A DNA stretch of 64,000 bases from Castor canadensis (Eukaryota; Chordata; Mammalia; Rodentia; Castoridae): assembly GCF_047511655.1 (NCBI RefSeq), contig NC_133401.1:42923570-42987569 (forward strand), read 5' to 3'. Position 1 is the stretch's first letter. Each line of letters begins with the position of its first letter. Positions 3,558 through 55,578 of this stretch are shown piece after piece. A program made the position numbers and the translations under genes. The notes beneath the pieces were generated by a model. It was not told where the DNA came from, ran no database searches, and saw nothing but the letters and a program-made list of their open reading frames with translations.

Positions 3558-3927
3558 TCTAGCAACATTCCTTTAAAATAAGTCTTTCTTCTACTGATTG
3601 GATTGCTTTGACTCTTACCAAAATTTTTGTATGTGTGAATCTATTTCTGGATTATCCATTCTATCCCACCTGGTTATATTTAATTATCTTTACACTAACA
3701 CTACACTGTATTAACAATGATAACTTTATAATAAATCTTAAAATCAGGTGGTGAAGTTCTCCAAATTTGTTCCCAAATTTATATTTTTATTGCAATAAAA
3801 ATGTACTTCAGGTAAACATATGAAGTTTTGATGCATAGTGAAATGGTTGGTATAGTTGTGCAAATTAACATCTATCATTTTATGTAAAATAATGCAATAT
3901 TTTCTGCATAAAAATAAGTGAGATCCT
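3558..3927 (-). mobile_element. Ancient L1 fragments (ORF2 piece and 3' UTR-like piece)
   Basis: 3590-3760 on the minus strand resembles old mammalian L1 ORF2, including the words around TTTATAATAAATCTTAAAATCAGG. 3770-3925 resembles an L1M-type 3' UTR (GTGAAATGGTTGGTATAG followed by AATTAACATCTATCA). Both are degenerate and no reading frame survives. Confidence 0.55.
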
Positions 3928-4145
3928 GCTTTTATCTTGTGATCAAAGTCCAATCCCCTTGTTGTGTTTGCCCTTGATCTAATGTCCACATATGAGGGAG
4001 AACAATGATTTTTGGTCTTTTGGGCCAGGATAACCTCACTCAGAATGATGTTCTCCAATTCCATCCATTTACCAGCGAATGATAACATTTTGTTCTACTT
4101 CATGGCTGCATAAAATTCCATTGTGTGTAGATACCACATTTTCTT
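3928..4145 (-). mobile_element. Displaced L1 segment: end of ORF2 and start of 3' UTR
   Basis: On the minus strand this 218-bp block encodes the last ~55 codons of L1 ORF2 (MLSFAGKWMELENIILSEV, then LAQKTKN) and the first bases of the 3' UTR. It matches the same region of the L1s at 27540-27760 and 25000-25200 closely. It is not followed by its own 3' UTR. The neighbouring full-length L1 (4146-11087) lacks precisely this segment at 4647/4648. The block overlaps both edges of that gap by short shared words (about 9 and 15 bases). See findings. Confidence 0.75.
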
Positions 4146-4568
4146 TTCTTTCTTTTTTTTTTCATCCTTAACTATTTTTTTTTGTGCTTTGGTTATTTTT
4201 TTTTCTTTTTTATTATTCATATGTGCATACAAGGTTTGGGCCATTTCTCCCCCCTGTTCACACCCCCTCCCTTACCACCCACTCCACCCCTCCCTCTCCC
4301 CCCCACCCCCTCAATACCCAGCAGAAACTATTTTGCCCTTATTTCTAATTTTGTTGAAGAGAGAGTATAAGCAATAATAGGAAGGAACAAGGGTTTTTGC
4401 TGGTTGAGGTAAGGATAGCTATACAGTGAGTTGACTCACATTAATTTCCTGTGCGTGTGTGTTACCTTCTAGGTTAATTCTTTTTGATCTCACCTTTTCT
4501 TTACTTCCTGGTCCCCTTTTCCTATTGGTCTCAGTTGCTTTTAAGGTATCTGCTTTAGCTTCTCTGTG

Positions 4569-7500
4569 TTAAGGGCAACAAATGCTAGCTAATTTTTTAG
4601 GTGTCTTACCTATCCTCATCCCTCCCTTGTGTGCTCTCGCTTTTATCAGATACCACATTTTGTTAATCCACTCATCAGTGTTGGGGCATCTTGGCTGTTT
4701 CCATAACTTGGCTATTGTGAATAGTGCTGCAATAAACATGGGTGTGCAGGTGCCTCTGGAGTAACCTGTGTCACAGTCTTTTGGGTATATCCTCAAGAGT
4801 GGTATTGCTGGATCAAATGGTAGATCAATGTTTAGCTTTTTAAGTAGCCTCCAAAGTTTTTTCCAGAGTGGTTGTACTAGTTTACATTCCCACCAACAGT
4901 GTAAAAGAGTTCCTTTTTCCCCCGCATCCTCGCTAACACCTGTTGTTGGTGGTGTTGCTAATGATGGCTATTCTAACAGGGGTGAGGTGGAATCTTAGCT
5001 TGGTTTTAATTTGCATTTCCTTTATTGCTAGAGATGGTGAGCATGTTTTCATGTGTTTTTTGACCATTTGAATTTCTTCTTTTGAGAAAGTTCTGTTTAG
5101 TTCACTTGCCCATTCCTTTATTGGCTCATTAGTTTTGGGAGAATTTAGTTTTTTAAGTTCCCTATATATTCTGGTTATCAGTCCTTTGTCTGATGTGTAG
5201 CTGGCAAATATTTTCTCCCACTCTGTGGGTGTTCTCTTCAGTTTAGAGACCATTTCTTTTGTTGAGCAGAAGCTTTTTAGTTTTGTGAAGTCCCATTTAT
5301 CTATGCTATCTCTTAGTTGCTGTGCTGCTGGGGTTTCATTGACAAAGTTCTTACCTATACCTACTAACTCCAGAGTAGTTCCTACTCTTTCCTGTATCAA
5401 CTTAAGAGTTTGGGGTCTGATATTAAGATCCTTGATCCATTTTGAGTTAATCTTGGTATAGGGTGATATACATGGATCTAGTTTCAGTTTTTTGCAGACT
5501 GCTAACCAGTTTTCCCAGCAGTTTTTGTTGAAGAGGCTGCTTTTTCTCTATCGTATATTTTTAGCTCCTTTGTCAAAGATAAGTTGGTTATAGTTGTGTG
5601 GCTTCATATCTGGGTCTTCTATTCTGTTCCACTGGTCTTCATGTCTGTTTTTGTGCCAGTACCATGCTGTTTTTATTGTTATTGCTTTGTAATATAGTTT
5701 GAAGTCAGGTATTGTGATACCTCCTGCATTGTTCTTTTGACTGAGTATTGCCTTGGCTATTCGTGGTCTCTTGTGTTTCCATACAAATTTCACAGTAGAT
5801 TTTTCAATCTCTTTAATGAATGTCATTGGAATTTTGATGGGAATTGCATTAAACATGTAGATTACTTTTGGGAGTATCGACATTTTTACTATGTTGATTC
5901 TACCAATCCATGAGCATGGGAGATCTCTCCACTTTCTATAGTCTTCCTCAATCTCTTTCTTCAGAAGTGTATAGTTTTCCTTGTAGAGGTCTTTCACATC
6001 TTTTGTTAGGTTTACACCTAGGTATTTGATTTTTTTGAGGCTATTGTAAATGGAATTGTTTTCATACATTCTTTTTCAGTTTGCTCATTGTTAGTGTATA
6101 GAAATGCTAATGATTTTTCTATGTTGATTTTATATCCTGCTACCTTGCTATAGCTATTGATGATGTCTAGAAGCTTCTGAGTAGAGTTTTTTGGGTCTTT
6201 AAGGTATAGGATCATGTCGTCTGCAAATAGGGATATTTTGACAGTTTCTTTACCTATTTGTATTCCTTTTATTCCTTCTTCTTGCCTAATTGCTCTGGCT
6301 AGGAATTCCAGTACTATGTTGAATAGGAGTGGAGATAGTGGGCATCCTTGTCTGGTTCCTGATTTTAGAGGGAATGGTTTCAGTTTTTCTCCGTTAAGTA
6401 TAATGCTGGCTGTAGGTTTGTCATATATAGCTTTTATAATGTTGAGGAACTTTCCTTCTATTCCTAGTTTTCTTAGAGCTTTTATCATGAAATGGTGTTG
6501 GATCTTATCAAAGGCTTTTTCTGCATCTATTGAGATGATCAAGTGGTTTTTGTGTTTGCTTCTGTTAATGTGGTTTATTACGTTTATTGATTTTCGTATA
6601 TTGAACCACCCCTGCATCCCTGGGATGAAGCCTACTTGGTCGTGGTGAATAATCTTTTTGATGTGTTGCTGAATTCGGTTTGCCATTATTTTGTTGAGGA
6701 TTTTTGCATCAATGTTCATTAAGGAGATTGGCCTATAGTTCTCCTTTTTGGAGGTGTCTTTTCCTGGTTTTGGGATAAGTGTAATACAGGCTTCATAAAA
6801 TGTGTTTGGCAGTTTTCCTTCCCTTTCTATTTCATGGAACAGTTTAAGGAGGGTTGGTATCAGTTCTTCTTTAAAGGTCTGATAGAATTCAGCAGAGACT
6901 CCATCAGGTCCTGGACTTTTCTTTTTGGGGAGACTCTTGATTGCTGCTTCAATTTGATTTTGTGTTATAGATCTATTCAGGTGATTAATTTCCTCTTGGT
7001 TCAGTTTTGGATGATCATATGTATCTAGAAATCTGTCCATTTCTTTAAGATTTTCAAATTTATTTGAATATAGGTTCCAAAGTAGTCTCTGATGATTTCC
7101 TGGACTTCCATGGTGTTTGTTGTTATCTCCCCTTTTGCATTCCTGATTCTACTAATTTGAGTTTTTTCTCTCCTCATTTTAGTCAGGTTTGCCAGGGGTC
7201 TATCGATCTTGTTTATTTTTTCAAAGAACCAACTTTTTGTTTCATTAATTCTTTGTATGGTTTTTTTGGTTTCTATTTCATTGATTTCAGCTCTTATTTT
7301 TATTATTTCTCGCCTTCTATTTGTTTTGGGATTTGCTTGTTCTTCTTTTTCTAGGAGTTTGAGATGTATCATTAGGTCATTGATTTGGGATCTTTCAGTC
7401 TTTTTAATATATGCACTCATGGCTATAAACTTTCCTCTCAGGACTGCCTTAGCTGTGTCCCACAGGTTCCGGTAGGTTGTGTTTTTATTTTCATTGACTT

Positions 7501-8322
7501 CCAGGAACTTTTTAATTTCCTCTTTTATTTCATCAATGATCCATTCTTCATTAAATAATGAGTTATTTAGTTTCCAGCTGTTTGCATGTTTTTGTCTTTA
7601 CTTTTGTTGTTGAGTTCTAGTTTTACTGCATTGTGATCAGATAGTATGCACTGTATAATTTCTATTTTCTTATATTTGCTGAGACTTGCTTTGTGCCCTA
7701 GGATATGATCTATTTTGGAGAAGGTTCCATGGGCTGCTGAGAAGACTGTATATTGTGTAGAAGTTGGATGAAATGTTCTGTAGATATCAAGTAAGTCCAT
7801 TTGATCTATTGTATATTTTAGATCTTGGATTTCTTTATTGATTTTTTGTTTGGATGACCTATCTATTGATGATAATGGGGTGTTTAAGTCTCCCACAACC
7901 ACTGCGTTGGTGTTAATATATGCTTTTAGGTCTTTCAGGGTATGTTTGATGAAATTGGGTGCGTTGACATTGGGTGCCTACAGGTTAATGATTATTATTT
8001 CCTTTTGGTCTATTTCCCCTTTTATTAGTATGGAATGTCCTTCTTTATCTCGTTTGATCAATGTAGGTTTGAAGTCTACTTTGTCAGAGATAAGTATTGC
8101 TACTTCTGCCTGTTTTCGGGGGCCATTGGCTTGGTAAGTCTTCTTCTAGCCTTTCATCCTAAGCCTATGCTTATTTCTGTCGGTGAGATGGGTCTCCTGT
8201 AAGCAACAAATTGTTGGATCTTCCTTTTTAATCCATTTCATCAGGCGGTGCCTTTTGATGGGTGAATTAAGTCCGTTAACATTAAGTGTTAGTACTGATA
8301 GGTATGTGGTGATTCCTGTCAT
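4569..8322 (-). pseudogene. L1 ORF2 pseudogene (endonuclease and reverse transcriptase)
   Basis: ORF2p nicks target DNA and reverse-transcribes L1 RNA. The start is the ATG at 8322, reading MTGITTYLSVLTLNVNGLNS, the family's usual N-terminus. Endonuclease words survive at 7567-7902 (GDLNTP; IDHILGHK; LSDHNAVKLE). The longest open stretch, 6018-7040 (340 codons), covers the reverse transcriptase: [28 protein letters not shown], the [13 protein letters not shown] box and the catalytic FADDM. The next stretch (5548-6069) holds the thumb/post-RT part. Frameshifts or stops separate at least six pieces. Near 4648 a deletion removes the last ~55 codons and fuses the frame to 3' UTR sequence (stop at 4569). 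Non-functional as a whole. Confidence 0.9.
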
Positions 8323-9565
8323 TTAGTTGTCAGTTGTTTCAAGGTTTGATTGTGTGTACCTAAGTTGAGGTTGCTCTCTACTGTCTTGCTTTTTCTTTTC
8401 CTGTGTTTGGTGCTGCCTGTCTTTTCATGGTTAAGTTGGGTTTCACTTTCTGTGTGCAGAATCCCTTGAAGAATTTTTTGTAGTGGTGGCTTTGTGGTCA
8501 CATATTGTTTTAGTTTCTGCTTATCATGGAAGACTTTTATTGCTCCATCTATTTTGAATGATAGTTTTGCTGGGTAGAGTATCCTGGGGTTGAAGTTATT
8601 TTCATTCAGTGCCCAGAAGATCTCACCCCATGCTCTTCTTGCTTTTAATGTTTCTGTTGAGAAGTCTGCTGTGATTTTGATGGGTTTACCTTTGTATGTT
8701 ACTTGTTTTTTCTCTCTTACAGCCTTCACTATTCTTTCCCTAGTTTCTGAACTTGTTGTTTTAATGTTGATATGTCATGGGGTAGTTCCATTTTGATCTG
8801 GTCTGTTTGGTGTCCTGGAGGCCTCTTGCATCTGTATGGGAATATCTTTCTCTAGATTTGGGAAATTTTCCATTATTATTTTGTTGAATATATTACGCAT
8901 TCCCTTTGCTTGCACCTCTTCTCCTTCTATGCCCATGATTCTCACGTTTGGTCTTTTGATGGAGTTGGTGAGTTCTTGCATTTTCTTTAACAGGTCTTGA
9001 GTTGTTTAATTAATAGCTCTTCAGTTTTTCCTTTAATTACCATTTCATCTTCAAGTTCTGAGATTCTGTCTTCTGTTTGTTCTATTCTGCTGGATTGGCC
9101 TTCTGTTTTGTTTTGCAGTTCTGTTTCGTTCTTTTTTCTGAGGTTTTCCATATCCTGGGTAGTTTTCTCTTTAATGTTGTCTATTTTTGTCCTGAGTTCA
9201 TTTATCTGTTTATTCATCGTGTTCTCTGTTTCACTTTGGTGTTTATACAGTGATTCTATGGTTTCCTTTATTTCTTCTTTTGCTTTTTCAAATTCTCTAT
9301 TTTTGTTGTCTTGGAATTTCTTGAGTGTCTCCTGTGCATTTTGGTTGACCCTATCCAGTATCATCTCTGTAAAATTCTCATTGAGTACCTGTAGTATGTC
9401 TTCTTTTAAATTATTCTTGTGGGCTTCATTGGGTCCTTTGGCATAGTTTATCTTCATTTTGTTGGAGTCTGGATCTGAGTATCTGTTTTCTTCATTTCCC
9501 TCTGGTTCCTGTACTAATTTTTTGCTGTGGGGAAACTGGTTTCCCTGTGTTTTCTGTCTTCCCAT
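8319..9565 (-). pseudogene. L1 ORF1 pseudogene (trimeric RNA-binding chaperone)
   Basis: I take the start at 9565 (MGRQKTQGNQFPHSKKL), which resembles the MGKKQ-type N-terminus of L1 ORF1p; the frame is open further upstream to 9637 but that part lies in the 5' UTR. 8987-9450 is a heptad-rich coiled coil (IEQTEDRISELEDEM). The RRM is at 8775-8981 (RPNVRIMGIEGEE) and the C-terminal domain at 8319-8729 (QVTYKGKPIKITADFSTETL, then KARRAW). Two frame breaks, near 8985 and 8750, separate the domains. The stop TGA (8321-8319) overlaps the ORF2 start ATG (8322-8320) as ATGA. Confidence 0.9.
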
Positions 9566-9830
9566 CATTGTCTTTGGTGTTGTTACTGTCCCTGTACTGT
9601 GTGCAATTAAGTATTTTCTAGCTTGTAATAATAACAATGGTAATATTTAGAATGGAAGGGTGAGTGGAGATGGAAAGCAAGCAGTTAAAGAAAAGGGAAA
9701 AACAAATAAATAGACAAGAAGGAGAAAACAGAACAAGGAATCAGACAAGAAAGTTTCAAAGGTATAAACTGGGAGTGTTAATGTACTAATTGACAGTAAG
9801 CTGAATAGGCATTAGAGAGACAGAGAGAGG

Positions 9831-13258: not shown

Positions 13259-16200
13259 GTATTTTTATTAGTGTGTATTAATTGTACAGAATGGTTTCAT
13301 TGTGATATGTCCATACAAACACATCATATGCTTTGGCCAAATTCACCCCCTGTATTACTTTCTGATGTCCCTCCCACCCCACTTAAAAAAACTTTTTATG
13401 GGTTTTATTACTCTATTTTCATACATACATATAAAATACTTGGCTTAGATTCACCTTCTATCACCCTCTCCTTTTTCCCTACTCACACCCAGTCCTTCTT
13501 TTACATCCATGTCATTTTAAAGGTGTATTTCCAAAAATGAGAGGAAACATGGTATTTGTCTTTATGAGTCTGGCTTACTTCACTTATCATGATGATCTCC
13601 AGGTCCACCTTTTTTCTTACAAATGACAAAATTTAATTTTTCTTTATGATTGAATAATACTCCATTGTGCTGCATATATACCAGATTTTTTAACCAATTC
13701 ATTTGGATAAGGCTGATTCCATAATTTTGCTATCATGAATAGTGCTGCTGTAAATATGGGTGTGCAGGTACCTCACCTATATGCAGACTTTCATTCCTTA
13801 GAATACTTGCCCAGGAGAGGTTTAACAGGATGATGTGTTTAGTTCTTGAGGAACTGCCACACCATTGTCAATAGTGGGCTGTACTAATTTACATTCCCAC
13901 CAACAATGTGTAAGGGTTCCTTCCCCCCCTTCCCCCCTGTACACTCCCCAGCATTGGTTGTTTGTATTCTGACAGGTGATGTGGAATCACAATGTCTATT
14001 TTATTTGCATTTCCTTAATGACTATGAATGTTGACCATTTTTCCATGTATATATTAGCCATTTGCATTTCTCTTTTTGTGAACTATCTGTTCATTTGCCC
14101 ATTAATTAACTGGATTATTTATTATTTTGATGTTTCTTTTTTTTTTAAGTGGGACTGGGTTTGAACTCAGAGCTTTGTGCTTGCAAAGCAGGTACTCTAC
14201 TACTTGAGCCACACCTCCAGTCCATTTTATTCTGGTTATTTTGGAGATGGGAGTCTCATACACTATTTGCCCAGGCTAGCCTCAAATCTTGATCCTATGA
14301 TTTCAGCCTCTCAGTTAGCTAAGTTTATAGGTGTGAGCCACTGGTGCCTAGCTTGGTATTTAATTTTTTGAGTTTTAATATATTGTGGTTATTCAGCCTT
14401 TTTCCAAATTGTAGGCTCTCGTTTCATCCTGGTAATTGTTTCTTCTGATGTACAGAAGTTTTTTTAATTTCATGAGCTCCCGTTACAATTTTCAGAACAA
14501 TTTCTATTCAGAAAATCACTGCCTATGGCTATATCTTTTAATGGTTTTCCCTATATATTTTTTTGTAGTAGTTTCAAAGTTTCAGGCCTTATCTCAAGAT
14601 ATTTGATCCATTTAGAATTCAGTTTTGTACAGAGATAGGGATCTAGTTTTAGCCTTCTACATGTGGATATTCAGCTTCCCAATGTTATTTATTGAAGAGG
14701 CTGTCTTTTCTCCAACATGTTTTTGGCACCTTTGTCGAGAATCAGATGTGTGTAGCTATGTGGGATTATTTCTGAGTCTTCTATTCTATTGGCCTAAGTG
14801 TCTGCTTTTTATGTCATTACAATGCTGTTTTTGTTACTGTGGCTCTATAGCATAATTTGAAGTCAGGTATTGTGATACCTCCAGGATTGTCCTTTTTGTT
14901 CAGAATTACTTTGGCTACTTAGGGTCTTTTATGCTTCCATATGAATTTTAGGAATGTTTTTCCTATTTCTGTGGAGAATGACATTGGAGTTTTAATGGGT
15001 ATTGCATAATAATTTTCTCAATATTAATTGTGCCATCCTTGAACATGGAAAGTCATTCTATATATTCTAGTGTCTTCTTCAATTTCTTTCTTCAATATTT
15101 TATAGCTTGCATTGTCTAGTGTTTCACCTCTGTAGTGGAGTATTTTTTAGGGTATTGTGAATGGGGTTATTTTCCTGACTTCTTTCTAAGCCTATTTGTT
15201 CTTGGTATATAGACAAAGTACTGATTTTTTATATGCTCAACTTGTGTCCTACTTTGCTGAAAGTGCTTATCAAATCTAAGAGTTTTTTGGTAGAGTCTTG
15301 AAGGTCTTTTAAGTTATAGGATCATATCATCTGGAAATAGAGATAATTTGAATACTTCTTTCTCTATTTTTATTCCTTTGTTTCTCTTATCTGATTCCTC
15401 TGACTGAGAATTCAAGTGCTATATTAAGTAAGAGTGGAGAGAGTAGACACCCTTGTCTTGTCCCTGAATTTAAAGGAAATGGTTTAAATTTCTCCAAATT
15501 AGGTATGATGTTGGCTGTAGATTTGTTGTATATAACCTTTATTACATTGAGGCATATTCCTTATATTCCAGGACTTTTATCATGAAAGGGTGTGAAATTT
15601 TGTCCAAGACTTTTTCTGCATCTAATGAGATGATCATGTAATTTTTGTGCATGATTCTGTCTATGTGCTGCATTATATTTATTGATTTATGCATGTTGAA
15701 CCATTCTTGTATCCCTTGGAGGATAGCAGCTTGATTATGTTATATGATATTTTTAATGTGTTCTTGAATGCAATTTGCCAGTATCTTATTGAGAAATTTT
15801 GCATCTCTGTTCCTCTAGGAAATTGGACTAAAATTGTCCTTTTTGGTTGTTGTGTCCTTATCCAGTTTTGGTAACAGGGTAATTCTGGTTTCATAGAATG
15901 AGTTTTGTAGTGTTCTCTTCCTTTATATCTTATGAAATAGTTTGAGGAAGCATTGGTGTTAGTTCTTCTTTAAAGGTCTGGTAGAATCCAGCAATGAATA
16001 TGTCTGGGTTTTTCTTTATTGGGAGACCATTACTACGTCAACTTTATTGCTTGTTATAGATCTGTTTAAGTTGTTTTTATCCCATTGATTCAATTTTGGT
16101 AAGTCATATGTGTCTAGAAATTTATTCATTTCTTCTAGATTTTTTCAGTTTATTAAATGTAAGTTTTCAAATTCCCTAATGGCCTTCTGAATTTCATTGG

Positions 16201-18660: not shown

Positions 18661-18800
18661 TTTTTATTATTATTATATTATTGTTTTACCTGGGGTACAT
18701 TGTGACATTTACAAAAAGTTCTTATGATATATCATAGTTGAATTTGCCCTCTCTATCATTCTCCTTTATCCCCTCTCCCCCCATTCCTGGATTAGCTGCC
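18661..18800 (-). mobile_element. L1 3' UTR fragment
   Basis: Plus strand GGGGTACATTGTGACATTTAC, ATATCATAGTTGAATT and a CCCCTCTCCCCCC run match the 3' UTR type at 23250-23360, 31590-31700 and 40830-40940. The boundary to the following 180 bases is unclear. Confidence 0.65.
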
Positions 18801-22600: not shown

Positions 22601-23220
22601 GACTCCTTGTGATTTTAATTTTCATTTCACTAATGATTAATAATGCTGGGCAGTGCCCTATGACTCTGATGGCCACTACCCATATGACCTTTAAGATTTC
22701 TCGGGGGCTGCACATACTACAAATGATGCTAGTGGCTTTCCTGGAGGGGTATGTCATGTTGTTCATCGTTCTACTTTTATAGAGTCCCCTCTGCAGCTCC
22801 ATGAGGCATTACACCACTGGGTGTTCTCGCTAGGGGACCCAATCCTGTGGCAAAACTCTGCTTAGATTCCCAAGCTTTCCTTTGTAATTGTGGTGGTAGC
22901 TGCCATAACTGTATAATTCTTGCATCCTGTGCACCTGCAAAACCAGGATAGTATGGATACCATGCACACTGTGGTTTGCCACCTGCATAAGCTGCACTTG
23001 GGCAGCTTGAACCATGGCTGTAGTTACTGAATGCTTCACTGGCTGAATGCAGGGAAGTAAATTCTAAGGGAGTCATGAGCAATAAATCCACAGAGGGAGA
23101 GCACCCAGGGTTTTATGAAACAACTCTTCTCTGGGAGTTCTCTGGGCTTATGATGGGAAGAATGACTTTCAATTCTGAGATGTCCTGAACCCTTTTTCCA
23201 ATTGTCCTGATGCAAAGCAC
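22601..23220. other. Unassigned, possibly MaLR internal sequence
   Basis: About 620 bases without a recognisable gene. Two overlapping minus-strand frames (104 codons at 22777-23091; 69 codons at 22830-23039) show no family I know. The flank beyond the U6/L1 insertion (24077-24535) and the MaLR LTR at 25608 make a decayed MaLR internal region plausible, but I cannot prove it. Confidence 0.35.
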
Positions 23221-24076
23221 TGGTTTCTTTTTTAATTTTTTTATTGTTTTATTGGATGGGGGTATCTTGTGGCATTTACAAAAGTTCTTATAATGTATCA
23301 AATATATCATACTTGAATTCACCCCCTCCACCACTCTCTTCATCCCCCCTCTCCCATTCCTGGAACAGTTTCAACAGGTATCATTTTTCCATTTACATAC
23401 ATGTGTACACATTTTTTGCACCATATTCACCCTCCCACACCCTTTCCCTGCCACCTCATCCCTCCCACTGGTACCAACCTCCCTCCCTAGCAGGACCTGT
23501 TCCACCCTCCAGTTCTTTGATTTTGTAGAAGAAAAAAGGAAAAAAAAAGAAATTTTGGTTTTGCTTATTTGAGATAAAAGTAGTTACACAGGGAGTTTCC
23601 GTGTGATATTTCCATGTATATATGTATTATAGCCCTAATTTGTTCATCTTCTCTAATTTTTGTTGTTGTTGTTCTGCCTTGGTCCCTTTCTTATGGTGGT
23701 TTTAGCCACTTTAGGAATTCTATACCATTCTTGTGTAGAGAGTATATCAACCATATTCACCTTCTTAGTTTCCTTTTTTACCCTCCTTCTCATATATGAC
23801 CTCCCCTTAGCATGACCTGTTTTTCATAATATTGCTGTATTTGTGTTAGGTCTGTATTTCACATATGAGAGAAAACATGGAGCTTTTGGCCTTCTGAGCC
23901 TGGTTAACTTCACTTAAGATGTCTTCAGTTCCATCCATTTACCTGCAAATGAAAAAATATGAAACTTTTCATGAATTTGTGTGTCATTCTTGCCCAGGGG
24001 TCACACTAATCTTCCCTGTATCATTCCAGTTTTGGTGAATATGCTGCTGAAGTGAGCACACTTGGTTTCTTTTTTA
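23221..24076 (-). mobile_element. U6 snRNA / L1 3' end chimeric retrocopy with 14-bp perfect TSD
   Basis: Reading on minus: TSD (24063-24076), U6 pseudogene (24059-23953), directly joined to the last ~33 codons of L1 ORF2 and the L1 3' UTR (about 23951-23250), an A-rich tail (T-rich on plus, 23235-23255), and the second TSD (23221-23234). Both TSDs read TGGTTTCTTTTTTA on plus. The fused junction is the U6 terminal T run followed by CATTTGCAGGTAAATGG, where L1 ORF2 encodes SFAGKWMEL. A single TSD pair around both parts shows one insertion event. U6-L1 chimeras of this form are known in mammals and are explained by template switching of L1 reverse transcriptase. Confidence 0.9.
23953..24059 (-). 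pseudogene. U6 spliceosomal snRNA pseudogene, full length
   Basis: The 107 bases match U6 from its 5' end (GTGCTCACTTCAGCAGC) through TACAGGGAAGATTAGTGTGA and CACACAAATTCATGAAAAG to the terminal T run. By eye roughly four fifths of positions agree, and many differences are C to T or G to A changes at former CpG sites. No proximal sequence element or TATA box is expected, since the copy arrived by retrotransposition. Not a functional U6 gene. Confidence 0.92.
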
Positions 24077-26150: not shown

Positions 26151-26228
26151 AGGGGCTAGAAATGTAGCCTAGTGGTAGAGCACTTACCTAGCATATGTAA
26201 GGTCCTGGGTTCAATATCCAGCACTGTT
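26151..26228 (+). mobile_element. ID-type tRNA-derived SINE
   Basis: AGGGGCTAGAAATGTAGCCT start, AGTGGTAGAGCACTTACC (A box), CTGGGTTCAATATCCAGC (B box), CACTG end with almost no A tail. Directly followed by a second SINE type. Confidence 0.85.
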
Positions 26229-26235
26229 ACATTTT

Positions 26236-26328
26236 ACTGGTGGAGTGGCTCAAGTGGTAGAGTGACTGCCTAGCAAGTGTGAGGTCCTGAGTTCAAACCC
26301 CAGTGCCACCAAAAATTAAAAAAAAATG
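26236..26328 (+). mobile_element. tRNA-derived SINE (dID type)
   Basis: CTGGTGGAGTGGCTCAAGTGG, GCCTAGCAAGTGTGAGG, CTGAGTTCAAACCCCAGTG, then an A-rich tail. A clear A and B box. It lies 8 bases after the ID element. Confidence 0.9.
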
Positions 26329-27060: not shown

Positions 27061-29208
27061 TGACTTGAGCAACTCCAGCAGCCCTGTTTTTTTTTCCTTT
27101 TTCTTTTATTATTCATATGTGCATACAAGGCTTGGGTCATTTCTCCCCCCTGCCCCCACCCCCTCCCTTACCACCCACTCCACCCCCTCCCTCTCCCCCC
27201 CACCCCCTCAATACCCAGCAGAAACTATTTTGCCCTTATTTCTAATTTTGTTCTAGAGAGAGTATAAGTAATAACAGGAAGGGACAAGGGTTTTTGCTGG
27301 TTGAGATAAGGATAGCTATACAGGGTATTGACTCACATTGATTTCCTGGGCATGGGTGTTACCTTCTAGGTTAATTCTTTTTGATCTCACCTTTTCTCTA
27401 GTTCCTGGTCCCCTTTTTGTATTGGCCTCAGTTGCTTTTAAAGTATCTGCTTTAGTTTCTCTGCATTAAGGGCAACAAATGCTAGCTAGTTTTTTAGGTG
27501 TCTTACCTATCCTCACCCCTCCCTTGTGTGCTCTCGCTTTTATCATGTGCTCATAGTCTAATCCCATTGTTGTGTTTGCTCTTGATCTAATGTCCACATA
27601 TGAGGGAGAACATACGATTTTTGGTCTTTTGAGCCAGGCTAACCTCACTCAGAATGATGTTCTCCAATTCCATCCATTTACCCGCAAATGATAACATTTT
27701 GTTCTTCTTCATGGCTGCATAAAATTCCATTGTGTATAGATACCACATTTTCTTAATCCATTCGTCAGTGGTGGGGCATCTTGGCTGTTTCCATAACTTG
27801 GCTATTGTGAATAGTGCCGCAATAAACATGGGTGTGCAGGTACTTCTGGAGTAACCTGTGTCACAGTCTTTTGGGTATATCCCCATGAGTGGTATTGCTG
27901 GATCAAATGGTAGATCGATGTCTAGCTTTTTAAGTAGCCTCCAAATTTTTTTCCAGAGTGGTTGTACTAGTCTACATTCCTACCAACAGTGTAAGAGGTT
28001 TCCTTTTTCCCCTCATCCTCGCCAACACCTGTTGGTGGTGGTGTTGCTAATGATGGCTATTCTAACAGGGGTGAGGTGGAATCTTAGTGTGGTTTTAATT
28101 TGCATTTCTTTTATTGCTAGAGATGGTGAGCATTTTTTCATGTGTTTTTTGGCCATTTGAATTTCTTCTTTTGAGAAAGTTCTGTTTAGTTCACTTGCCC
28201 ATTCCTTTATTGGTTCATTAGTTTTGGGAGAATTTAGTTTTTTAAGTTCCCTATATATTCTGGTTATTAGTCCTTTGTCTGATGTATAGTTGGCAAATAT
28301 TTTCTCCCACTCTGTGGGTGTTCTCTTCAGTTTAGAGACCATTTCTTTTGATGAACAGAAGCTTTTTAGTTTTATGAGGTCCCATTTATCTATGCTATCT
28401 CTTAGTTGCTGTGCTGCTGGGGTTTCATTGACAAAGTTCTTACCTATACCTACTAACTCCACAGTATTTCCTACTCTTTCCTGTATCAACTTAAATTTGG
28501 GATCTGATATTAAGATCCTTGATCCATTTTGAGTTAATCTTGGTATAGGGTGATATACATGGATCTAGTTTCAGTTTTTTGCAGACTGCTAACCAGTTTT
28601 CCCAGCAGTTTTTGTTGAAGAGGCTGCTTTTTCTCCATCGTATATTTTTAGCTCCTTTGTCAAAGACAAGTTGGTTATAGTTGTGTGGCTTCATATCTGG
28701 GTCCTCTATTCTGTTCCACTGGTCTTCATGTCTGTTTTTGTGCCAGTACCATGCTGTTTTTATTGTTATTGCTTTGTAATATAGTTTGAAGTCAGGTATT
28801 GTGATACCTCCTGCATTGTTCTTTTGACTGAGTATTGCCTTGGCTATTCGTGGTCTCTTGTGTTTCCATATAAATTTCACAGTAGATTTTTCAATCTCTT
28901 TAATGAATGTCATTGGAATTTTGATGGGAATTGCATTAAACATGTAGATTACTTTTGGGAGTATTGACATTTTTACTATGTTGATTCTACCAATCCATGA
29001 GCATGGGAGATCTCTCCACTTTCTATAGTCTTCCTCAATCTCTTTCTTCAGAAGTGTATAGTTTTCCTTGTAGAGGTCTTTCACATCTTTTGTTAGGTTT
29101 ACACCTAGGTATTTGATTTTTTTGAGGCTATTGTAAATGGAATTGTTTTCATACATTCTTTTTCAGTTTGCTCATTGTTAGTGTATAGAAATGCTAATGA
29201 TTTTTCTA
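27040..29208 (-). mobile_element. 5'-truncated young-lineage L1 with SINE head in its tail
   Basis: From low to high coordinate: (TTTA)n (27037-27060), 25 bases of SINE head on minus (27061-27086), T-rich L1 tail, 3' UTR to 27586, then ORF2 from its stop up to the RT region at 29208. TSDs TATCACTTTA lie at 27030-27039 and 29209-29218. The ORF2 part is very similar to 4750-6130 of the near full-length L1. Truncation during insertion explains the missing 5' part. Confidence 0.9.
27587..29208 (-). pseudogene. 3' part of L1 ORF2, 5'-truncated
   Basis: 28491-29156 is open for 221 codons ([20 protein letters not shown] ... WAYW-like [16 protein letters not shown]), 28013-28489 for 158 codons, and 27587-27886 for 99 codons ending at the normal ORF2 C-terminus (NRMFSLICGH, stop). 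Frame breaks near 28490 and 28010 separate them. The RT catalytic part is missing, so it is a dead fragment. Confidence 0.88.
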
Positions 29209-30926: not shown

Positions 30927-30942
30927 TGTGTGTTTTTTATTG
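30835..30942. repeat. (GT)n microsatellite, compound
   Basis: GT runs broken by AAGT units and starting GTGCGCGCCCGCGTGTG. It adjoins the A-tail side of a minus-strand SINE, a common birthplace of microsatellites. Confidence 0.92.
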
Positions 30943-31018
30943 GGGTTCCTGGGGATTGAACCCAGGGCCTCATGCTTACTAGGCAAATGTTCTACCACTT
31001 GAGCCACACCCCCATCCC
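30940..31018 (-). mobile_element. ID-type tRNA-derived SINE
   Basis: Minus strand: GATGGGGGTGTGGCTCAAGTG (A box), CTAGTAAGCATGAGGCC, CTGGGTTCAATCCCCAGGA (B box), short A tail leading into the GT/CA microsatellite. Confidence 0.9.
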
Positions 31019-32330
31019 TGTGATCTTGACACCTTTGAAAAATTATTTTATAGACTGTCTCTTAAGTCGGACCTATTCTTTTCTCATAATTGGAAGGACG
31101 TTTGCACATTTTGGGTAAAGATACTCTGAAAGTGCAGGTCCCTTCTCAGCTTGTCCCATCAGGGACAAGCACGTGATATCAGTCTTATTAGTATTAGTAA
31201 GTATTATTCGTATTAATGTGAATCACCTAGTTCAGGTGTTGTCTGTCATAATAATCTTCTGAAATGCACTGTCTTTCCATTTGTAATTAATAAATATCTT
31301 GGAAGAGAGATTTTGAGACTGAGTAAACATGCTGCTTCTCAAAACGTCTCTTGCTAATTTTAGAACCATTATTAGTCTTGTCTGCCCTTCACTGCAGTGT
31401 GCTGATGGTGACTTTCTCTCCCTGTGTTCCTTCTGTTTGTGCTAACTGGAATTACTCTGTAAGAAGAGCTTCCCTTCTCGCTATGTAGTTATTTAGTTAC
31501 TCGTTTATTTGCATCAGTATTGACCCTCCTATGTTTATTCTGATATGTAGGATTTTTTTGTTAATTTTGTTTTTATTAGCAAATTATTTTGTACTGGGGA
31601 TACATTGTGGCATTTACAAAGATGCTCAGAATATATCTTAATTAAATTCACTCCCTCCATCATTCTCCTTTACTCCCCATCACCCTCTTCTTAGAAGTTT
31701 CAGCAGGTCTCATTTTTCCATTTTCATACATAATAATTCAATCATATTCATCCTCCCACACCCTTTCCTTCCCACTTGTGCCTACCCCCAAATAGGACCT
31801 TCATTTTTGAAAAAGACATTTTTGTTTGTTTAAGAGGGCTATACAATGTGTTTCAGTATGACATTTCCATGTATATATGTGTTACATGCTGAATTGGTTC
31901 ATGCCCCCCATGTTTTCTCCCTTCTACCTTAATCTCCTTCTTATGGTGATTTCAACAGGTTTAAAAATTCTAAATTCATTCTTGTATAGAAAGTACATCA
32001 GCCACATTTACTTTCTTTTACCCTCCCAGGATATTCTTTTGCTGTGTGTTTTCTCACTCGCGTATTTTCACTCTAGACAATGGCCATTCTTTGAGGTTGG
32101 CTCCCGTGTTCTTCCCATATGTCCTCATCCTTTCTGAGCACTTCTTTACTTTCTGGTATTAACTATTTGTCCAAGGAACAAGGATTCTGGTTTGTTTGTT
32201 TTAAAGTGCAGAATGGTATTTAGAAGCTAAGATCTGAGCAGCAAATGTCCTCATTGTTACGGGGATGTCATTGGTTCTAGATTCTATCAATGTACAGAAC
32301 TTGGAAATATTTGTTCAGTGCAGTAGCTTA
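31019..32330 (-). mobile_element. Ancient L1 (L1M-type, 5' region), interrupted
   Basis: 31440-31550 and 32045-32170 are the two sides of one old L1 segment (GAGCTTCCCTTCTCGC, TTATTTGCATCAGTATTGAC; then GACAATGGCCATTCTTTGAG, CTGAGCACTTCTTTAC). The inserted L1 3' UTR at 31553-32040 lies exactly between them. 31020-31440 shows no gene and is probably the same old element. Confidence 0.6.
31553..32040 (-). mobile_element. L1 3' UTR, 5'-truncated insertion
   Basis: Plus strand GGGGATACATTGTGGCATTT, CATTTTTCCATTTTCATAC, CATATTCATCCTCCCACACC, TATGACATTTCCATGTATAT follow the same order as 23260-23800 (the L1 part of the U6 chimera). It is inserted in ancient L1; TSD is unclear (GGATTTTTTTG / GGATATTCTTTTG). 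Confidence 0.75.
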
Positions 32331-34832: not shown

Positions 34833-35245
34833 GTTTTTGTGGTACTTGGGATTGGACTCAGGACTTTACACTTGCTAGGCAGGTGCTTTATTGCTTGAGC
34901 CATGACTCTAGTCCTTTTTGTTCTGGCTATTTGGTGGCTGGGAGAGAGTGTTCTCACTTTTTGCTCAGGCTAGCCTGGAGCATGGTCCTCCTATTTGAGG
35001 CTTCCTGCCATCACTGGGATGACAGTCACATACTGCATGCCCAGCTTTTTTCCCATTGAGGTGGGGGGTCCCATAAACTTTTTTTTTTGTCTAGATGGGA
35101 CTGGAAGTGCAATCCTCCCAATCTCAGCCTCCCATGTAATTTGGGATGACAGGCACACACTACCATGCCCAGCTATTGGTTGAGATGGGAGTCTCATGAA
35201 TTATTCACCCAGGTTGGCCTAGAACCATGATCCTCCTATCATGTC
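34833..35245 (-). mobile_element. Multimeric SINE: partial B1 + B1 + B1 + dID unit
   Basis: On minus, from high to low coordinate: a B1 3' half (35245-35175), a second B1 unit (about 35174-35050, GCTGGGCATGGTAGTGTGTG), a third (35049-34915, GCTGGGCATGCAGTATGTGA), then a tRNA-derived unit (34914-34836, GTCATGGCTCAAGCAATAAA, CCTGAGTCCAATCCCAAGTA) and a short A tail. Could be one trimer or stacked insertions; see findings. Confidence 0.75.
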
Positions 35246-40357: not shown

Positions 40358-40558
40358 TTTTTCGTTTTTGCAGTACTGGGATTTGAACTCAGGGTCTACA
40401 CCTTGAGCCACTCCACCAGACCTTTTTTGTGATGGGGTTTTTTTCTTGAGATAGGGGTTTATGAACTGTTTGCCCAGGCTGGCTTCGAACCTCAATCCTC
40501 CTGATCTCTGCCTCCCAAGTAGCTGGGATTACAGACATAAGCCACTGGTGCCTGGCTG
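40358..40558 (-). mobile_element. Composite B1-dID SINE
   Basis: On minus: AGCCAGGCACCAGTGGCTTA, TACTTGGGAGGCAGAGATC, GAGGTTCGAAGCCAGCCTGG, then dID unit (GGTCTGGTGGAGTGGCTCAA, CTGAGTTCAAATCCCAGTAC), A-rich tail. Well preserved, so relatively young. Confidence 0.92.
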
Positions 40559-40569
40559 TTAAAAGTATT

Positions 40570-41183
40570 TTTTGCAGAACAGTGGAGCCTCTAAGAGGTG
40601 TGGCCTAGTTGGAGAAAGTTAGGTTGCTGTGGATGTGCCCTTGAAGAAGATATTGGGACACTGGTCCTTTTCTGTCTTTTTGATTACTGGCTACCATGTA
40701 CTCCCACCATGTGCACGGCCAGAGGCCCAAAGGCCGTGGGACCAAGCAACCATTGGACTAGAACCTCTGAAACCATGAGCCAAAGTAAAGCTTTCCTTTT
40801 TTCAAAAGAAAAAAATATTTTTTATTGTGCTGGGGGTACATTTTGGCAATTACAGAAGTTCTTACAATGTATCAGGTATATCATACTTGAATTCACCCCC
40901 TCCACCATTTCTCCTTTATCCGCCCTACCCCCCTATTCCTGGAATAGTTTCATCAGACATAATTTTTCCATTAACATGCATGTGCACACAGTATTTGCAC
41001 CATATTCACCCTCCTTCACTATTTCTTTACCTCCTCCCCCCTCCTACTGGTACCAACCCTCCCAGGCAGAACCTATTCCGCCCTCCTGTTCTCTGATTTT
41101 ATAAAAGAAAAAAAAAACAAAACCCTTTTTTTAAAGTTGATTTTTTTCTGGTAATTGTTATAGTAATGCAAAGCTGACTAATT
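40570..41183 (-). mobile_element. MaLR-class LTR, split by an L1 3' UTR insertion
   Basis: 40570-40802 (GAGGTGTGGCCTAGTTGG, GAACCTCTGAAACCATGAGC, CAAAGTAAAGCTTTCC) and 41136-41183 (GGTAATTGTTATAGTAATGC, AAAGCTGACTAA) are the two sides of one repeat whose complement has the THE1/MST-like order. The related copy at 42186-42612 is uninterrupted and has the same end (GTCACAGTGATGAAAAGTC, TGACTGACTG). Confidence 0.6.
40803..41135 (-). mobile_element. L1 3' UTR, 5'-truncated insertion
   Basis: Plus GGGGGTACATTTTGGCAATT, TACAATGTATCAGGTATATC, GGAATAGTTTCATCAGAC, CACCATATTCACCCTCC follow the same 3' UTR as in the U6 chimera. The T/A-rich edge at 40803-40825 is its tail. It splits an LTR. Confidence 0.8.
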
Positions 41184-44811: not shown

Positions 44812-44902
44812 GATAGAAGTATGGCTCAAGTGGTAGAGCACCTGCCTACCAACTGTGAAACCCTGAGTTCAAATCCCAGTACCACCAAAAAAAAAAAAAG
44901 AG
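44812..44902 (+). mobile_element. tRNA-derived SINE (dID type)
   Basis: GTATGGCTCAAGTGGTAGAG (A box), CCTACCAACTGTGAAACCC, TGAGTTCAAATCCCAGTACC (B box), CACC and a 13-bp A tail. Confidence 0.92.
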
Positions 44903-54728: not shown

Positions 54729-55578
54729 CCAATGAAACCCCAGCAGCACAGCTCTTAGTTAAGAGATAGCATAGATAAATGGGACCTCATAAAGCTAAAA
54801 AGCTTCTGTTCATCAAAAGAAATGGTCTCTAAACTGAAGAGAACACCCACAGAGTGGGAGAAAATATTTGCCAGCTATACATCAGACAAAGGACTGATAA
54901 CCAGAATATATAGGGAACTTAAAAAACTAAATTCTCCCAAAACTAATGAACCAATAAAGGAATGGGCAAGTGAACTAAACCGAACTTTCTCAAAAGAAGA
55001 AATTCAAATGGCCAAAAAACACATGAAAAAATGCTCACCATCTCTAGCAATAAAGGAAATGCAAATTAAAACCACACTAAGATTCCACCTCACCCCTGTT
55101 AGAATAGCCATCATTAGCAACACCACCACCAACAGGTGTTGGCAAGGATGTGGGGGAAAAAGGAACCCTCTTACACTGTTGGTGGGAATGTAAACTAGTA
55201 CAACCACTCTGGAAAAAAATTTTGAGGCTACTTAAAAAGCTAAACATTGATCTACCATTTGATCCAGCAATACCACTCTTGGGAATATACCCAAAAGACT
55301 GTGACACAGGTTACTCCAGAGGCATCTGCACACCCATGTTTATTGTAGCACTATTCACAATAGCCAAGTTATGGAAACAGCCAAGATGCCCCAGCACTGA
55401 CGAATGGATTAAGAAAATGTGGTATCTATACACAATGGAATTTTATGCAGCCATGAAGAAGAATGAAATGTTATCATTCGCTGGTAAATGGATGGAATTG
55501 GAGAACATCATTCTGAGTGAGGTTAGCCTGGCCCAAAAGACCAAAAATCGTATGTTCTCCCTCATATGTGGACATTAG
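54729..55578 (+). pseudogene. C-terminal part of L1 ORF2, one frameshift
   Basis: 54822-55193 is open for 123 codons ([20 protein letters not shown]), then the frame shifts in the overlap 55150-55193 into a second frame, which stays open to the natural stop at 55578 (NRMFSLICGH). The C-terminal cysteine-rich word (CWQGCG ... HCWWECK) straddles the frameshift. One base change in frame separates it from an otherwise uninterrupted 280-codon tail, so the copy is young. Confidence 0.9.

Follow-up and report, generated by a model that had tools for sequence, protein, structure and literature searches.

A full-length U6 snRNA copy joined to a 5′-truncated L1 within one 14-bp TSD in Castor canadensis

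Within the window analysed here (the whole stretch of 64,000 nucleotides of the Castor canadensis genome, in which all coordinates are given), a U6 snRNA copy and the 3′ part of an L1 element lie end to end on the minus strand between the two copies of a short perfect repeat. Read along the minus strand, i.e. in the sense of the element, the order is a TSD copy at the U6 5′ end (24076-24063), three bases reading AGT (24062-24060), the U6 copy (24059-23953), a 5′-truncated L1 made up of an ORF2 remnant, a 3′ UTR and an A-rich tail containing AATAAA (23952-23235), and then, at the L1 3′ end, the other TSD copy (23234-23221). Both parts share one orientation, with U6 on the 5′ side of the L1, and the TSD copies, to which no strand is assigned, are the same 14-mer.

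The U6 copy was identified through Rfam, in which positions 23953-24059 on the minus strand matched RF00026 over the full model (1-105 of 105; 82.4 bits, E = 2e-19), and was aligned with a human U6 reference sequence, to which 88 of its 107 bases are identical with no internal gaps. The copy is full-length with a T run at its 3′ end, and the claim of a full-length minus-strand U6 made in an earlier reading of the letters without database searches (the sequence-only reading) was borne out by both comparisons. Relative to the human sequence the copy carries 19 substitutions over 107 bases, of which 16 are transitions and seven are located in CpGs, one in each of its seven; taken together, these changes look like the decay expected of an old pseudogene. 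A second copy was not found within the 64-kb window with U6 as the query. A U6 retrocopy would be without the upstream promoter of the U6 gene, and the whole U6/L1 insertion is apparently an old, inert genomic scar.

The L1 part was recognized by blastn against the L1 copies of the window, by alignment across its junction with U6 and by mapping a relative to the end of human ORF2p. The stretch immediately adjoining U6 (23860-23952) resembles six further sites in the window, with 73-77% identity, although the query ended at 23952 and blastn alone was therefore blind to where homology stops. The junction was compared base by base with four of these six copies, two being omitted. At the junction (23952..23953), the four other copies read TTATCATT[T/C]GC and the element reads TTTTTTCATTTGC. 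In ungapped comparison, every bin downstream of the junction agrees with the four copies at 8-10 of 10 positions. Upstream, the first bin gives 6 of 10, both sides being T-rich there, and the bins beyond it give 0-5 of 10. All four comparisons show L1 likeness dropping at the junction, and on the evidence of these four of the six the L1 is 5′-truncated and joined directly to U6, with neither an A tail nor any other bases between them. Six Ts make up the run at the junction, and one of them may derive from either RNA, L1 included.

One of the other L1 copies could be aligned to the C-terminus of human ORF2p, the match reaching residue 1274 of 1275. By this alignment the junction falls inside the codon corresponding to residue 1242 of 1275, so that 33-34 ORF2 codons are left; this agrees with the roughly 33 codons plus 3′ UTR, joined without a spacer, that had been proposed before. 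Against the six other copies in its alignment the remnant is four bases short, and it is therefore not an open frame. Relatives of the 3′ UTR lie at 40816-41122, at about 31570-32026 and, as a third, at 18672-18791. The first differs from the element by 18%, 14% or 18-20% and the second by 27-29%, 19% or 29-35%, depending in each case on the alignment. It had been suggested that the L1 belongs to a subfamily that also left pieces at 31553 and 40803; related 3′ UTRs are indeed present there, but their membership of one subfamily was not upheld.

Several further elements were observed in the window. A nearly full-length L1 occupies 3744-9646 on the minus strand, with ORF1-like and ORF2-like frames in several pieces (by eye, from the list of open reading frames); the end of its ORF2 matched the U6/L1 element and its 3′ UTR did not. 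Positions 27587-29162 (minus) and 54759-55578 (plus) hold 3′ parts of L1 ORF2 whose last frames reach the ORF2 stop, the former matched to human ORF2p, and both look younger, by eye, than the U6-linked L1. Rfam returned 13 matches at E up to 0.5, comprising the U6, five tRNA, two 7SL, four microRNA and one SCARNA7 (E 0.41), of which the U6 and four tRNA matches reached the cut-off, with the 7SL, microRNA and SCARNA7 matches all below it. SINEs derived from tRNA (GTGGCTCAAGTGGTAGAG.. type) lie at 14147-14218, 26158-26311, 30941-31013 and 44815-44887; the second of these intervals contains two such SINEs side by side, the first of them below the Rfam cut-off, and a long CA repeat follows the SINE at 30941. 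The weak 7SL RNA matches, at 35095-35173 and 40464-40556 on the minus strand, are presumably B1-like SINEs. These tRNA- and 7SL-like SINE types would fit a rodent genome.

The repeat enclosing the unit is perfect over 14 bp (23221-23234 and 24063-24076), and neither strand of the window has a further copy of its 14-mer, which confirms the TSD that had been described around the whole unit. Shared runs of at least 14 bases were found in none of 4000 random pairs of 40-base windows taken at about the same spacing, and in 17 of 3958 (0.43%) pairs of windows containing T runs, which were drawn from anywhere in the window. For the latter comparison 4000 pairs were drawn and 42 dropped as lying less than 60 bases apart, with related repeats kept; at 17 of 3958, a TSD arising by chance in a T-rich setting was rejected. 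When the U6/L1 junction was compared with either outer flank in 40-base windows, the longest common repeat was 6 bp, and thus a TSD was found for neither part alone: a single TSD encloses the whole.

In the strict sense the TSD may be 13 bp, starting at the A run (element sense), with the outer T matching by chance. A similar convention, in which the T is counted in the longest identical repeat, appears in the excerpted text of PMC4476161 for 3′-truncated snRNA copies. In element sense GGA precedes the TSD copy at 24063-24076, which places the bottom-strand nick at 5′-TTTTTT/ATCC-3′. Written in element sense as AT/AAAAAA, this site is L1 endonuclease-like (TT/AAAA type), being a near match and not the exact consensus.

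The unit is best read as a U6/L1 chimera inserted in a single retrotransposition event, and to this reading, which holds for either route of joining the RNAs, we assign a probability of about 0.93. The sequence-only reading had arrived at such an event with template switching as its specific mechanism; the single event stands, with one TSD around both parts and an L1 endonuclease-like site, and template switching as the specific route is one of two published possibilities, RNA ligation before insertion being the other. Insertion would have begun with a nick of the bottom strand by ORF2p at TTTTTT/A, followed by priming at the L1 RNA's A tail and by copying of about 0.7 kb of L1 and then of all of U6 to its 5′ end. 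The target before insertion would, under a single event, read GGATAAAAAAGAAACCAGTGCTTTGC. Neither a 20-mer across the junction nor a 26-mer of this empty site had a match in a collection of viral contigs, which, being viral, carries no weight for this locus.

As to how the RNAs were joined, we lean towards ligation of U6 by RtcB to a 5′-OH L1 RNA fragment before insertion, rather than a jump by the reverse transcriptase, and we do so because of reported experiments, not because of this locus. Ligation of U6 to L1 RNA was reportedly observed by Moldovan in 2019. Excerpts of PMC13247085 describe U6 ligation to L1 RNA before insertion, and those of PMC13174262 name both template switching and RNA ligation for U6/L1 chimeras; the Moldovan study is cited in both papers. 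A single event through template switching, in which the L1 reverse transcriptase halted in the terminal part of ORF2 and moved over to a U6 RNA at its 3′ end, is possible though in our view doubtful. It is the model given for U6/L1 chimeras in the excerpted text of PMC4476161, where the switch takes place during target-primed synthesis, and is one of the two named in PMC13174262; further, one T is common to the U6 end and to the L1 base before the junction. However, this shared T is the entire overlap, chance would give a one-base overlap at about one junction in four (our own estimate), and a single locus cannot reveal an excess over chance. The locus itself decides nothing in this respect, and U6 has elsewhere been reported to be ligated to L1 RNA. 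Junctions collected in full from this lineage could help to choose between template switching and RNA ligation, and could also test for matches between U6 and the target at 5′ junctions.

Such a match is present here. The target just past the TSD (23211-23220) is GTGCTTTGC, in which GTGCT (element sense) matches the first five bases of U6, whose start is GTGCTC. The chance of a five-base match at that place is about 0.001 (the frequency of GTGCT in the window is 0.00088), for a match noticed after the fact. Given this match, the TSD may instead measure about 19 bp, one of its copies having gained AGT. The three bases at 24060-24062 had been read as possible non-templated additions, which is one possible reading of them, but not the sole one, as the GTGCT past the TSD allows for the longer TSD and small insertion. 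It is conceivable, if unlikely, that the end of the U6 cDNA was resolved by pairing with the target. The 5′ junction would then have been set by the U6 5′ end, and the real TSD would span about 19 bp, one copy of it carrying a three-base insertion. If this pairing were both true and general, U6/L1 insertions would favour sites matching the U6 5′ end.

Two independent insertions, i.e. a U6 pseudogene beside an older or younger truncated L1, are highly improbable and were rejected, for although nearby insertions do occur and the U6 looks somewhat more diverged than the L1 branch, one 14-bp TSD encloses both parts, none was found around either part in 40-base windows, and no A tail or other bases separate the two. 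The divergence concerned is a JC distance of U6 from the human sequence of 0.142 at non-CpG sites (12/93) and 0.203 at all sites (19/107), whereas the branch proper to the L1 part measures 0.092 (three copies, 274 columns, 17 sites unique to the L1 part). Had the parts of the chimera arrived jointly, the L1 branch should match or exceed the U6 distance, and the apparently greater divergence of U6 would thus argue weakly against joint arrival. The weight is weak because the samples are small, the aligned 3′ UTRs are rich in G and full of gaps, and the U6 source was maybe not canonical; relative dating of the two parts, being slightly adverse and too weak to use, was set aside.

In the excerpted text of PMC13174262, human U6/L1 chimeras number 180 loci, of which 98.3% are in sense orientation and in which U6 is typically full-length, and they are usually without further propagation. 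Since human chimeras usually do not propagate further, the locus described here is likely to be an independent example. Across placental mammals, retrotransposon-associated U6 copies were recorded in 38 of 39 genomes, the megabat having 0, with counts of 109 in mouse, 50 in rat, 29 in guinea pig, 12 in kangaroo rat and 6 in squirrel (Table 2 of PMC4476161, as excerpted, in which the 'Repeat' group of U6 copies is defined by any retrotransposon and not by L1 alone). Like the U6 processed pseudogenes with poly(A) or 3′ truncation described in the same excerpts, the present U6 would have been moved by L1 machinery, but unlike them it is fused to L1 and is not itself polyadenylated or truncated.

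The locus differs from the catalogued human U6/L1 chimeras in its lineage, in its L1 3′ UTR and in the three bases between TSD and U6. It resembles the catalogued chimeras in having a sense, full-length U6 at the 5′ end of a 5′-truncated L1, joined at the U6 3′ end, with one TSD and an L1 endonuclease-like site, and it has no trait beyond those in the descriptions excerpted from PMC13174262 and PMC4476161. It is an ordinary, added example of an already well catalogued type of mammalian U6/L1 fusion, which by itself matters little other than in adding one member to a known class.
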